Of a DNA stretch of 62,181 nt, positions 14,800-40,772 are shown in pieces. Within the stretch, counting starts at the first letter, position 1. Every line of letters starts with the position of its first letter. The stretch covers positions 1 through 62,181 of the forward strand of contig QJYK01000102.1 in NCBI GenBank assembly GCA_003248075.1. The letters run 5' to 3'. Position numbers and translations under genes: made by a program. The stretch is from Gemmatimonadota bacterium (GTDB lineage: Bacteria; Gemmatimonadota; Gemmatimonadetes; Longimicrobiales; Gaopeijiaceae). Below the pieces are notes generated by a model. That model made no database searches and had not been told where the DNA came from. It saw nothing but the letters and a program-made list of their open reading frames with translations.

Positions 14800-15449
14800 G
14801 GTGTCCGCGCGGTGGGGCCGGCGTTCATCCAGACGATCGCGCCCAGCACGATCAGCAAGAGACCCACAGTCACCCAGCGAGCGAGCGTGCGTGCGACGCC
14901 GACGGGTAGCGTCAGGAAGGCCAGCGCGAGCACGAGGCCCTCGATCACCATCGCCCTGCCCAGGAACCGACGGGCGGAGGTCACCCGTTCGGCGAGATGA
15001 ACGGGAAGCAGGGACAGCGGCGTCAGGATCTTGGGCACCGCGTTGCCGATGACGATGAAGACCGCGCTCGCCGCGAGGCCCAGGACGCGGCGCTCCCCGT
15101 CGAGGTTCGGGCGATGATCCCCGAGCCGAACCCAGAGCTCGAAACCGAAGCGCGTGGCCTGCACGATCCCGAGCGCGAGCACGATCAGCGTGAGCGCGGA
15201 GAGGAAGTAGCGCTCGGTGGCCGTTTCCCCGGCCTCGCTCGGACCACGACGTGATCGACGCCAAGCGTTCCAGAGCGTCGGGCCGAACCAGAGCAGGGGC
15301 AGGATGAGCAGGCCCCGGAGCCAACGCAGCGCCTGCTCCGGGCTCAGGATCCAGTTCACGCCCGCCAGGAGCGCAACCAGAAGGACGATCAGGGTGGCAG
15401 ATTCGCGCCGACGACCGACATGCGCGATTACCGGAGTCTGGGGTTCCAT
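14796..15449 (-). CDS. SdpI-family membrane protein
   Basis: A 217-residue protein with about six membrane segments. The SdpI signature is visible as VIVIGN-type text (FIVIGNAVPKI), the GN..PK motif of that family, preceded by a segment with VLGLAAS. In Bacillus subtilis, SdpI gives immunity to the SdpC toxin and sequesters the SdpR repressor; here a toxin gene is not visible nearby, so the role is open. The ATG at 15449 sits only 4-5 bases after the predicted transcription start, giving an almost leaderless message, and has no Shine-Dalgarno. The longer open frame to 15908 runs antisense-like through the YbjQ gene and is not credible. The stop overlaps the ArsR start. Confidence 0.9.
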   Translation of the reverse strand: MEPQTPVIAHVGRRRESATLIVLLVALLAGVNWILSPEQALRWLRGLLILPLLWFGPTLWNAWRRSRRGPSEAGETATERYFLSALTLIVLALGIVQATRFGFELWVRLGDHRPNLDGERRVLGLAASAVFIVIGNAVPKILTPLSLLPVHLAERVTSARRFLGRAMVIEGLVLALAFLTLPVGVARTLARWVTVGLLLIVLGAIVWMNAGPTARTP

Positions 15450-15453
15450 GATA

Positions 15454-15479
15454 ATTCGATGTTTAGCGAAACATCGAAT
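15454..15479. promoter_or_regulatory. 11-bp perfect inverted repeat, likely ArsR operator
   Basis: ATTCGATGTTT at 15454-15464 and AAACATCGAAT at 15469-15479 are perfect inverted copies with a 4-base centre. The AT-rich palindrome stands out from its GC-rich surroundings and covers the spacer and -10 of the promoter for the SdpI-ArsR pair, as expected for autorepression by the encoded ArsR protein. Confidence 0.85.
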
Positions 15480-15488
15480 CTTTGTCAA
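15460..15488 (-). promoter_or_regulatory. Sigma-70-type promoter of the SdpI-ArsR operon
   Basis: On the minus strand a consensus -35 box TTGACA (15488-15483) is followed after exactly 17 bases by TAAACA (15465-15460). The -35 box overlaps the TGA stop of the YbjQ gene (15487-15485). The predicted start of transcription is near 15453, only a few bases before the ATG at 15449. Confidence 0.75.
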
Positions 15489-36772: not shown

Positions 36773-36999
36773 GCGTGACACCAGAATCCCGGACCGCCAC
36801 CCGATCGACGGGCGATAGCTGATCGAGCGCGCCGCGGGGCCGGTGGCCTCGGGGATCGACGAGACCGTACCCCGCCTCATCCTCCTCACCCGCTTCGACC
36901 AGAAGATCCGGCGCGTCTTCGGGGGGAGATGATCCCGGATCCCGTTCATCGCCCAACTCCTCCCATCCCCAATCCAGGTATCCCGATGTCGCGTGCCGG

Positions 37000-37341
37000 C
37001 TAGGGGCCAGCCACTTCCTTCCCTCCCACCCCGAGAAAGAACCCGAGGGCCTTCTGCGCCACTTCCATGCCTTCACGGTCGAGGCGGTAGAACGTCCACC
37101 CCTTCTGCGCCTTGGCGGTGACCAGCCCGGCCTGAACGAGAATCTTCATGTGCCGAGACGTCGTGGGCTGGCTCACCTCGAGCTTTTCCGCGATGAAGAC
37201 CGAGCATACCCCGTCCTCCACCAGGTCCCCATCCCGCTGGGGAGGAAAGTGCGCGCGCGGGTCGGCCAACCACTCCAGCACCTTCATGCGCTTGTCGCTT
37301 GCCAGGGCCCGACAGAGCCCCACGAGATTCTCGCGGTCCAT
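37000..37341 (-). CDS. ArsR-family repressor
   Basis: A 113-residue winged-helix regulator: LVGLCRALASDKRMKVLEWL, then CSVFIAEKLEVSQPTTSRHM as recognition helix, ILVQAGLVTAKAQKGWTFYR as wing. It has a longer loop before the recognition helix (DPRAHFPPQRDGDLVEDGVC) than the other two ArsR proteins here. A lone Cys precedes VFIAEKL, a place where redox or metal sensors of this family carry a ligand, but no second ligand is evident. ATG 37341 lies 64 bases after the stop of the MBL-fold gene on the same strand, so it is probably cotranscribed and controls the operon through the palindrome at 38407-38430. Confidence 0.9.
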   Translation of the reverse strand: MDRENLVGLCRALASDKRMKVLEWLADPRAHFPPQRDGDLVEDGVCSVFIAEKLEVSQPTTSRHMKILVQAGLVTAKAQKGWTFYRLDREGMEVAQKALGFFLGVGGKEVAGP

Positions 37342-37405
37342 GGCGGGTACGTTCCCCAGCCGTGCCGGTCCGGTCAAGCCGGACCCGTTCGGCTGTGGCC
37401 GCAAT

Positions 37406-38374
37406 TCATCGTCTAAACCACTTCCGCGCGCCGTACGCCATGAGCTCCGGAAGCTCGAGATCCGGATACCGCTGGACCATGGCCTCGACGAGATCGTCGG
37501 CTGACGCCGCTTCGCGCATCAGGGTGTCGTAGGCGTCGAGGTAGCGAAGCATGAAGGCGATCTGGTCCTGGGCGTCGGGCGTGGTCAGATGGCGCTTGTG
37601 CCCCGGTACCACGGCTGCGGCATCCAGCGCCGCCAGCCGCCGCAGCGACGCTCGCCACTCGTCCCTCGCCTGGATGTCGGCATCCCCGAGCCAGGGGTGG
37701 ATCCCCTCGAACACGAGATCGCCGGCCAACACGGTCCTTATGGAAGGGATCCAAAGCGCCGCGCTCTTGCCGCCGCGCACGTCACCCCCCAACCCCTCCA
37801 GGACCTCGATGGCGTATCCGTCCACGTCGAGCCCGCCGTCGGGCAGGAGCCGAGGCGTGACGATGCTGTCCGGCACCTCGTCCCCTCCTCGCTCCTGCGC
37901 CCTGGCCAGGACCCCAGGAGCTCGCCCCTGGAAGTCCTCGAGGCCGGACCGGGTCATGTAGACGGGCGTCCCGGGAAAGCGCCGCAGCACCTCCATGGCC
38001 CCCATGAAGTGATCGTGGTCCGCGTGGGAGAAGAGGATGGCCTTGAGATGCTTGCCCGTCGCGGCGATCTCGTCGGCCAAGTGCCGGCCGTCGCTCACGG
38101 TGTTCTGGGCGTCCCAGAGAATCAGCTCGCTGGGCCCCACGACCAGGGACGAGACCACGTAGAAGGCGGACGCCTTGGGAGCGCCGACCTTCACGATGCG
38201 GAGCGCGCCCGCCTGACCCTCCGCCAGGTTCTGGACCGCGGCCGCCGGAGGCTGCATGAGGAAGCCACCCCACGCCAGCGCCCCCGCCCAGCCCAGTCGC
38301 GTCCACAGTGTCCTCGCGGCGCTGCGAACCATCCAGCGCCCCACCTCACGCTGCCCCGAGCACGACTTTCCCAT
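37406..38374 (-). CDS. Exported MBL-fold metallo-hydrolase
   Basis: A 322-residue metallo-beta-lactamase-fold protein. Metal motifs: SHADHDHFMGA (HxDH box with the first His), the Asp in VLAGDLVFEGIHPW and the last His in VVPGHKRHL; the second box His may be in FEGIHP. A hydrophobic segment within the first 48 residues ending PPAAAVQN looks like a signal peptide after a basic n-region. GGAGGGG just before ATG 38374 supports this start over the inner ATG at 38332. The family includes hydrolases and persulfide dioxygenases; the acidic residue and sequence between boxes do not decide. Operon with the ArsR repressor and preceded by an operator. Confidence 0.88.
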   Translation of the reverse strand: MGKSCSGQREVGRWMVRSAARTLWTRLGWAGALAWGGFLMQPPAAAVQNLAEGQAGALRIVKVGAPKASAFYVVSSLVVGPSELILWDAQNTVSDGRHLADEIAATGKHLKAILFSHADHDHFMGAMEVLRRFPGTPVYMTRSGLEDFQGRAPGVLARAQERGGDEVPDSIVTPRLLPDGGLDVDGYAIEVLEGLGGDVRGGKSAALWIPSIRTVLAGDLVFEGIHPWLGDADIQARDEWRASLRRLAALDAAAVVPGHKRHLTTPDAQDQIAFMLRYLDAYDTLMREAASADDLVEAMVQRYPDLELPELMAYGARKWFRR

Positions 38375-38406
38375 AACCCCTCCCTTGCTCCACCCACGTG
38401 ACCTAG

Positions 38407-38445
38407 CTAGTTAGCATATTAGCTAACTAGTAACGTGAGCGTCAA
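38407..38445 (-). promoter_or_regulatory. Promoter with palindromic operator before the MBL-ArsR operon
   Basis: A perfect 9-bp inverted repeat CTAGTTAGC (38407-38415) and GCTAACTAG (38422-38430) surrounds ATATTA. On the minus strand the centre reads TAATAT (38421-38416) and is the -10 box; TTGACG (38445-38440) is the -35 box with an 18-base spacer. TTAG..CTAA-type AT-rich palindromes are typical ArsR sites, so binding here would block the -10 directly. Confidence 0.82.
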
Positions 38446-38560
38446 GGAATGAAGGCGCGCGCGGGCGTTTGACGCCTCCCAAACGCCCATGCCGCCGCCT
38501 CCGCCACGACCGGACGGGCCGACTGACCGGTTGAGTCCGCACGCGCACCGGCCAGCGGAC

Positions 38561-38603
38561 TTGCCCGATCCATAACCAACGTGCTATATAACTGTATGGT
38601 TAT
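38561..38603 (+). promoter_or_regulatory. Promoter of the ArsR-SRPBCC pair, with flanking inverted repeat
   Basis: TTGCCC (38561-38566) and TATATA (38585-38590) are spaced by 18 bases. ATAACCA (38572-38578) and TGGTTAT (38597-38603) form a 7-bp inverted repeat around the -10 box. The expected transcription start falls at about 38597, next to the ATG at 38596, and no Shine-Dalgarno is present, so translation may be leaderless. Confidence 0.6.
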
Positions 38604-38949
38604 GATGACGCCGGACGCGGACCTCCTCGACGCGACGTTCTTCGCGCTCGCGGACCCGACCCGTCGCGCCATCCTGGCGCGGCTCGCTACCGGCGAGGCG
38701 TCGGTGGGAGAGCTGGCCGAGCCCTTCGAGATAAGCCAGCCGGCCATCTCGAAGCACCTGAAGGTCCTCGAGCGCGCGGGCCTGGTCTCCGTGGACCAGG
38801 ACGGTACCCGCAGGCTCCGCCGCCTCGAGACCGCGCCCCTGGACGCCGCGACCGACTGGATCGCCCGGTACCGGGACCTGTGGGAGTCCCAGTTCCGGCG
38901 CCTGGACGCGGTGCTGGACGAGCTCAAGGCCGCGCGGCGATCCGATTGA
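38596..38949 (+). CDS. ArsR-family regulator, partner of SRPBCC protein
   Basis: A 117-residue ArsR regulator: LDATFFALADPTRRAILARL, then LAEPFEISQPAISKHLKVLE as recognition helix, RAGLVSVDQDGTRRLRRLE as wing and a C-terminal helix RYRDLWESQFRRLDAVLDEL. This C-terminal WESQFRRLD helix is typical of ArsR proteins coded before AHSA1/SRPBCC genes. Three in-frame ATGs (38596, 38602, 38605) are possible; the promoter suggests a leaderless start at the first. The SRPBCC gene follows after 37 bases. No metal ligands are seen. Confidence 0.9.
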   Translation: MVMMTPDADLLDATFFALADPTRRAILARLATGEASVGELAEPFEISQPAISKHLKVLERAGLVSVDQDGTRRLRRLETAPLDAATDWIARYRDLWESQFRRLDAVLDELKAARRSD

Positions 38950-38986
38950 CCCCCACCCCGAGACCCACGAGACCAAGGAGAAGACC

Positions 38987-39499
38987 ATGGTGACCCTCCC
39001 CGAGACCGCGCAGGTCGCCCTGCCCGGCGACACCCAGGTCAGCGTCAAGCGCGCGTTCCGCGCCCCCCGCGAGCTGGTCTGGGAAGCCTACACGACCCCC
39101 GAGCTGATGCGGCGCTGGCTCACCGGATATCCCGGGTGGACGATGACCGTGTGCGAGATGGACGTCCGCGCGGGCGGGACCTTCCGCTGGCGTTGGCGCG
39201 ACGACGCCGACGGAAAGGAGTTCGGCTTCCACGGCGAGTACCTCGAGGTCGACGCCCCCGCCCGCCTCACCAACACCGAGGCCTTCGACCCCGGTGACGT
39301 CGGCGGGAGCATGGGCGCCGAGCCGGCGCTGATCACGGTGACCTTCGAGGAACACGACGGGGCGACCGTGATGACCACGCTCATCGAGTACGACTCACAG
39401 GCCAGCCGCGACGAGGCCGTCGCCACCGGCATGACCGACGGAATGGAGTGGAGCTACAAGAACCTCGACCGGACCCTGGCCGAGCGGCAGAAGGGCTGA
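38987..39499 (+). CDS. SRPBCC/AHSA1-family protein
   Basis: A 170-residue START-fold protein of the AHSA1 (activator of Hsp90 ATPase homologue 1-like) family: VKRAFRAPRELVWEAYTTPE, LMRRWLTGYPGWTMTVCEMD, GGTFRWRWRDDADGKEFGFH, then VTFEEHDGATVMTTLIEYDS and GMEWSYKNLDRTLAE. The fold makes a hydrophobic pocket for a small ligand. AAGGAGAAG at 38975 is the ribosome site for ATG 38987. It is paired with the ArsR gene before it, an arrangement common in many bacteria; the ligand and purpose are unknown. Confidence 0.92.
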   Translation: MVTLPETAQVALPGDTQVSVKRAFRAPRELVWEAYTTPELMRRWLTGYPGWTMTVCEMDVRAGGTFRWRWRDDADGKEFGFHGEYLEVDAPARLTNTEAFDPGDVGGSMGAEPALITVTFEEHDGATVMTTLIEYDSQASRDEAVATGMTDGMEWSYKNLDRTLAERQKG

Positions 39500-39581: not shown

Positions 39582-40772
39582 TCAGGGGGCGATGCCGAAG
39601 GGCCTCTCGCCCATCCGCCCCAACCCCCATGCCGCCGCCTCCGCCACCAGCGGATCGTCGTCCGACAGCGCGGACACCAAGGTGCCGACGGCTTCCGGGT
39701 CCGGCGCGTCCAGGGTGGCCAGCCAGTTGCCGATCGCGATCGCGACGTTGCGCCGCAGCTCCGAGTAGCCCGCCCGCCGCATCGCCGACCCCCGGGTGTA
39801 CGCGTCCCACTCGTCCTCGGACATGCGCATGAGGGCGACGAGGGACGGGCCGTCCGTTCCGGGGATCACCGCCTCGGTGGGCCCGTCGTCGTCGGGATCG
39901 TCGGGGTCGCGGTCCCACTCGGCCTCCCAGGAGGGACGCGCATCGTAATCGCGCTCTGCGGCCACCTCTGCGAAGCGCTCGTTCCATGGACACACCTCCT
40001 GGCAGATGTCGCACCCGTAGATCCGGTTGCCGATCCGGGGTCGCAGCCCGTCCGGGATCGCTCCGTGGTGCTCGATCGTCAGGTAGGAGATGCAGCGCGT
40101 CGCGTCCATCAGGGCCGCGCCGTCCTCGTCGCGGCCGAGCAGGGCTCCGGTCGGGCACGCGTCCAGGCAAGCCCGGCACGTCCCGCAGCGATCCACGGGG
40201 AACGGCGGATCGGGCCAGAGCTCGATGTCCAGCAGGAGCACGCCCAGGAAGAAGTACGAGCCGCGCGCCGGGTCGATCAACATCGTGTTCCTGCCGAACC
40301 AGCCGATGCCGGCGCGGCGCGCAAGGTCGCGCTCGAGGATGGGGCCCGTGTCCACGTAGGCACGCCACGTCACCGACCCTTCCACGGCCTCGTCGATGCG
40401 CCGGCCGAGCCGTTGCAGCTTCTTCTTGACCACCCTGTGGTAGTCGCGACCGCGCGCGTAGCGGGCGATCACGCCCCGCGACGGGTCGTCCGGCACGCCC
40501 GACGGGTCCTCCTGGGCGTAGTCGTGCGTGACCACGACCACGGACCGGACCCCCGGCAGCGTGCGCGCGAGGTCCGCGCGTCGCGCCACGGCGTCCGGGC
40601 GCGCCAGGTAGCGCATGTCCCCGTGTCTGCCGTCGTCGAGCCATCGTCGGTAGAAATCGAGGTGGGCGGAATCCTCGGGCGTCGTGATGCCCACGCGCCC
40701 GAAGCCCAGTGCCTCACCCTCCCGCTGAACGAGCCGGGCGAGCGCGACCCCGTCGACGTCGGACGCGCTCAC
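39582..40772 (-). CDS. queG: Epoxyqueuosine reductase QueG
   Basis: A 396-residue cobalamin and iron-sulfur enzyme that reduces epoxyqueuosine to queuosine in tRNA wobble position 34. Visible: YVDTGPILERDLARRAGIGW with active-site Asp141, FGRNTMLIDP, and two 4Fe-4S motifs (C196xxC199xxC202xxxC206 and C227, C254xxC257xxxC261 with ICQEVCPWN). HEAT-like helices close the C-terminus (SELRRNVAIAIGNWLAT, AEAAAWGLGRMG), as in full-length QueG. The GTG at 40772 overlaps the stop of the glycosyltransferase gene (GTGA) and puts the first helix at the usual place; longer frames are not homologous. QueE for the same pathway is at 53380-54051. Confidence 0.94.
   Translation of the reverse strand: MSASDVDGVALARLVQREGEALGFGRVGITTPEDSAHLDFYRRWLDDGRHGDMRYLARPDAVARRADLARTLPGVRSVVVVTHDYAQEDPSGVPDDPSRGVIARYARGRDYHRVVKKKLQRLGRRIDEAVEGSVTWRAYVDTGPILERDLARRAGIGWFGRNTMLIDPARGSYFFLGVLLLDIELWPDPPFPVDRCGTCRACLDACPTGALLGRDEDGAALMDATRCISYLTIEHHGAIPDGLRPRIGNRIYGCDICQEVCPWNERFAEVAAERDYDARPSWEAEWDRDPDDPDDDGPTEAVIPGTDGPSLVALMRMSEDEWDAYTRGSAMRRAGYSELRRNVAIAIGNWLATLDAPDPEAVGTLVSALSDDDPLVAEAAAWGLGRMGERPFGIAP

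Follow-up and report, generated by a model that had tools for sequence, protein, structure and literature searches.

A predicted operator of a DGDL/DGVC-type ArsR repressor covers the -10 box of a two-gene MBL-arsR operon in a Gemmatimonadota bacterium

Among the closest described systems is the BigR-Blh operon of Xylella and Agrobacterium, which shares an ArsR-fold repressor, an operator on the -10 box and an MBL-fold operon gene with the locus analyzed here. In the part of PMC5823870 available to us, the operator of BigR covers the -10 region and the protein requires Cys42 and Cys108; the available part of PMC4383860 gives His79, His135 and Asp154 as the iron ligands of ETHE1. Different from BigR-Blh, the MBL protein of our locus is probably exported, and no sulfite exporter was seen beside the operon. 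The repressor shares its fold and sequence neighbourhood with the NolR/HlyU/SdpR branch of ArsR proteins. Compared to that branch, however, it carries an additional loop, HFPPQxDGDLxxDGVC, which follows helix 2 and precedes the recognition helices, and it scores above no specific NCBIfam cut-off, the general metalloregulator model excepted. For the MBL protein, the closest named family is Vmh (NF040580).

The features of the locus are collected in Table 1; the window is the whole stretch of DNA that was analyzed, 62,181 nucleotides in length. The palindrome in front of the MBL gene is a perfect 9-6-9 inverted repeat, CTAGTTAGC-ATATTA-GCTAACTAG. Its arms (38407-38415 and 38422-38430) are 100% complementary and are separated by a 6-nt spacer, which reads TAATAT on the minus strand and coincides exactly with the -10 box of the promoter. 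TTGACG-18-TAATAT (38445-38416) is the only sigma-70-like promoter found in 36900-39000, where shuffled sequences gave a mean of 0.2. The palindrome lies 33-56 bases before the ATG of the MBL gene (38374); on the minus strand, the promoter is followed by the MBL gene and then by arsR, whose likely ATG (37341) is located 64 bases past the MBL stop codon. The first-pass annotation had described a perfect 9-bp repeat centred on the -10 box at this distance from the MBL start, with the ArsR gene downstream in the same operon. The coordinates and the promoter scan agree on the former, and the shared strand and the 64-base spacing bear out the latter.

Table 1. Coordinates of the MBL-arsR operon, its promoter and the neighbouring divergent genes
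Feature	Position	Strand	Basis or remark
ArsR operator (predicted)	38407..38430	.	palindrome; best motif match 38408-38429, 30.4 bits; unique in genome
-10 box TAATAT	38416..38421	-	centre of palindrome
-35 box TTGACG	38440..38445	-	18-bp spacer to -10
Probable ribosome binding site AGGGAGGGG	38377..38385	-	read from sequence
MBL-fold protein, 322 aa, Vmh-like, probable signal peptide, HADHDH, without motif-3 His	37406..38374	-	profiles, alignment
ArsR/SmtB repressor, 113 aa, DGDL/DGVC subfamily, second operon gene	37000..37341	-	profiles, homologs, structure model
Divergent ArsR, SdpR-like/AHSA1-associated	38596..38949	+	profiles; not owner of the 38407-38430 palindrome
AHSA1/SRPBCC protein, partner of divergent ArsR	38987..39499	+	Pfam
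Own palindrome of divergent ArsR, CATAACCA...TGGTTATG	38571..38604	.	start of ArsR-AHSA1 pair; type conserved among homologs

The palindrome most probably serves as the only operator of MBL-arsR, a self-regulated operon of two genes that would be switched by ligand release of the repressor. The sequence gives good support to the operator, the promoter, the order of the genes and the correspondence of the repressor subfamily with the operator. We infer repression, ligand release and export in the following form. One ArsR dimer would occupy the -10 box and block RNA polymerase; a cytoplasmic signal, at a guess an amino-acid-derived metabolite and possibly a reactive enamine or imine, would free the dimer from the operator, and the exported MBL protein as well as more repressor would then be produced. 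A switch of this type is already known; what is new is the ArsR subfamily and its pairing with an MBL gene.

The operator motif was derived by unsupervised search from the 124-bp regions that precede 49 homologs of the operon's ArsR (40 genome_contigs loci and nine from genomes of the same phylum), with the window excluded. One 22-bp motif, tAnTTAGcnAATTggCaAAaTG, is common to these upstream regions, 45 of the 49 scoring 13.5 bits or more. It is absent from the 124 bp upstream of the other four (L013, L023, L032 and L070); in L013, a similar repeat is located farther upstream. In the 62-kb window, the palindrome ranked first with 30.4 bits, compared to a maximum of 29.6 among the training sites; the next-best site of the window has 18.6 bits, and 60 simulated windows peaked at 16.6. 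The palindrome also came first when the motif was built from the 40 genome_contigs loci alone (28.0 bits) or from the nine own-phylum loci alone (22.7 bits). Two held-out enterobacterial ArsR homologs, on plasmids of Pantoea and Erwinia, gave 27.3 and 30.5 bits, in each case just before their own arsR. The earlier assignment of the palindrome as an ArsR operator is upheld by the distance between 30.4 bits and the null maximum; we ascribe the site to ArsR because the motif is conserved among homologs, not because of the number of repeats. It is very probable that the palindrome is an operator owned by the operon's ArsR, and the ArsR encoded at 37341-37000 is very likely autoregulatory and in control of MBL-arsR.

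The type of operator seems to track the recognition helix, with at least three types among L008-L049 and L063-L071, as judged by eye and without statistics. By the same reading, Actinobacteria and the window's phylum combine TTAGC-type boxes with SQPT/SAPT helices; Rhodobacter-like loci, Pantoea and Erwinia combine CTATATAG boxes with SQPTVTSH-like helices, and sphingomonads combine TTTCGTTGATTGGCAAAC boxes with the NASTLSEH helix. Within the 5.64-Mb genome, the palindrome is unique when up to three mismatches in the 16 fixed bases are allowed, and it is the sole genomic occurrence of TTAGC-N6-GCTAA without mismatch. Since the operator has a single genomic copy, the regulon may consist of the MBL-arsR operon alone.

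The operon's ArsR has the winged helix-turn-helix fold and the HTH_5/metalloregulator profile matches of ArsR/SmtB proteins: it matches Pfam HTH_5 at 32.9 bits (cut-off 22) and, from its ATG start, the NCBIfam metalloregulator model NF033788 at 55.2 bits (cut-off 55). Its structure model has a pLDDT of 90.8, with the As(III)-responsive ArsR 6j05 as the top Foldseek hit. An unusual loop, [HN]FxxQxDGDLxxDGVC, precedes the recognition helices and is characteristic of the subfamily; DGDL is kept in all 51 homologs, GVC in 50 and Cys46 in 50, the exception in each case being a truncated frame (L047 for Cys46). L008-L047 were found with seed peptides including AHFPPQRD, so the invariance of that peptide in these loci carries little weight; among the 11 loci retrieved without this seed, 11/11 retain DGDL and GVC and 4/11 retain HFPPQ. 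The only cysteines of the protein are Cys10 and Cys46, with none at the C-terminal side. The subfamily is apparently unnamed, and we found no study of it in the literature searched (open-licence papers).

We counted the genes within 1.5 kb of the 51 homolog loci, with representatives named by Pfam. Threonine/serine-dehydratase-like PALP genes are located near 14 of the loci, PhzF-like genes near 12, YbaK-like tRNA-editing genes near nine, RidA-like genes near eight, PLP decarboxylase genes near six and a Cys/Met-metabolism PLP enzyme near one. At least one of PALP, PhzF, YbaK, RidA and Cys/Met-PLP occurs at 37/51 loci, or at 43/51 when the PLP decarboxylase is included. PALP dehydratases together with RidA may point to an enamine/imine or amino-acid signal, and their presence near the homologs suggests such a signal for the ArsR. 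With PALP-fold dehydratase-like, RidA-like, YbaK-like, PhzF-like and other PLP-enzyme genes beside the subfamily elsewhere, our best guess, drawn only from these neighbours, is a signal related to amino acids or enamines; the same pattern suggests ligands to try.

The repressor may also be a metal or metalloid sensor, in which the invariant Asp/Cys loop (DGDL..DGVC) would be the binding site for a metal or As(III), with the MBL gene as a side gene. Near-complete conservation of Cys46, an As(III) regulator as the nearest fold and the score just above the metalloregulator cut-off are consistent with it; however, Cys46 is a lone cysteine without a nearby partner, no metal transporter or ars gene appears among the homolog neighbours listed, and those neighbours are amino-acid enzymes. 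We consider this reading possible but unlikely.

None of the 51 ArsR homolog loci has this MBL gene beside it, and no MBL-ArsR pair was found beside the MBL relatives examined, the closest of which stand with other regulators and without the operator. Among these 51 ArsR loci and the MBL relatives, the pairing is thus seen in this genome alone. It is possible, but unlikely, that DGDL/DGVC ArsR proteins are unstudied sensors of amino-acid or enamine/imine metabolites, with an operator code of their own in several phyla, and that one member has come to control an exported MBL-fold enzyme here, the metal site of which is altered. If so, a cytoplasmic metabolite signal would be coupled to chemistry outside the cytoplasm. 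In this genome, the predicted target of the DGDL/DGVC repressor is an unrelated, probably exported enzyme, and a widespread subfamily gains a predicted operator that is directly testable.

The palindrome could in principle be the operator of the divergent ArsR, or be shared by both regulators: it lies ∼165 bp upstream of the divergent gene, and the motif of the divergent-ArsR homologs scores it at 15.4 bits, the second-highest value in the window. That motif, however, places 38572-38603, within the divergent gene's own palindrome, first with 21.1 bits. In the reciprocal comparison, the operator motif of the MBL-arsR operon does not exceed 10.7 bits in the ∼300 bp upstream of any of 29 divergent-ArsR homologs, including one that is 96% identical and from the same genus. 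The alignment with a same-genus genome (G085) likewise begins at 38515, between both palindromes, and is confined to the block of the divergent ArsR and AHSA1 genes, at 94.4% DNA identity; in G085, the palindrome is absent at the aligned locus, and the MBL protein and the operon's ArsR have no match in that genome. On this reciprocal motif test we rejected the divergent ArsR as the owner, and ownership or sharing by it is quite improbable; cross-binding of the divergent ArsR to the palindrome is possible.

The divergent ArsR-AHSA1 block is flanked by one 40-bp direct repeat (38475-38514 and 39615-39654, 88%), which matches the 3' end of a neighbouring gene that we take to be QueG-like. The repeat looks like a scar of insertion or recombination. 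Since it brackets the block, we infer an insertion; it is as if the ArsR-AHSA1 block had been placed beside a pre-existing MBL promoter.

In the MBL protein, Pfam finds Lactamase_B only (64.3 bits). Its match to Vmh extends over residues 58-316 with 147.9 bits, well below the cut-off of 430; all nine MBL proteins compared match this family. The metal motif is HADHDH in place of HxHxDH, and the motif-3 His is replaced: the position reads GGD in the window's protein, and GGD, VGD or QGD across it and its three nearest relatives. The Asp of motif 4 (AGD) and the His of motif 5 (PGH) are retained. Further metal ligands are missing from five more distant relatives, of which four are on plasmids. 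The solved relatives found with the profile are the MBL-superfamily protein 8d2z, B1 beta-lactamases and a few others among the best 60 of 68 hits. Although B1 chains are among the nearest solved relatives, the protein has neither the HxHxD nor the motif-3 His of class B beta-lactamases. All nine proteins compared have a hydrophobic segment at the N-terminus, and that of the window's protein is the least hydrophobic. The enzyme had been described as exported: the segment in all eight relatives supports this, the weakness of its own segment speaks against it, and export is probable.

MBL matches were found in 5 of 395 genomes of the phylum, 3 of 154 of the order and 3 of 394 of the class, counts that include the own genome and were obtained with different E-value limits; no relatives were found on viral contigs. 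In the window's phylum, the relatives adjoin LytS-like, HTH or MarR genes (names partly by eye). On plasmids they adjoin LysR genes, in four cases read, and some are near DsbA or GST genes. Several Vmh-like MBL proteins on plasmids (L050-L053 and P0001) are without several metal ligands, for example with GDPDF in place of HxHxDH; in such proteins, metal binding may be of another kind or absent.

The first-pass annotation had likened the layout to the persulfide-linked BigR-Blh. On a full analogy, a dithiol of ArsR would sense persulfide, and the MBL protein would be an exported persulfide dioxygenase. The operator on the -10 box, as in the available part of PMC5823870, and the shared operon of an ArsR and an MBL-fold gene preserve the likeness in layout; the link to persulfide and to ETHE1/Blh did not hold. 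The MBL protein is unlikely to be a persulfide dioxygenase because ETHE1 needs the His79, His135 and Asp154 given in the available part of PMC4383860, whereas the motif-3 position here is GGD. It also has no DUF442 or rhodanese domain, and no ETHE1 chain was found among the best 60 of the 68 profile hits. It groups with Vmh-like and class-B1-like proteins. As to the repressor, it is without the Cys42/Cys108 pair reported for BigR in the available part of PMC5823870, reaches 23.8 bits against the BigR model NF040642 (cut-off 155), and belongs to a subfamily whose profile reads eWL at the CML position of HlyU; its homologs adjoin genes of amino-acid enzymes rather than of sulfur oxidation. We rejected the persulfide reading, which is highly improbable, because of the metal ligands, the domains and the cysteines of the repressor.

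A transcription terminator or a chance repeat is scarcely credible as an explanation of the palindrome: bare 9-bp inverted repeats (spacer 0-12) are indeed unexceptional in number, with 12 pairs in the window and 7-17 in six simulated windows, but no terminator-like site was found and the homolog-motif match far exceeds the null. Arms with at least five A/T of nine occur at two places (four registers) in the window and in none of the six simulated windows.

One further palindrome, TTCGATGTTTAGCGAAACATCGAA, is located at 15452-15481, adjoins a minus-strand TTGACA and is the second-best motif match of the window (18.6 bits). It directly precedes a frame that encodes a membrane-like protein (ATG near 15448) and is followed by an SdpR-like ArsR; the palindrome is probably the own ArsR-type operator of that operon.
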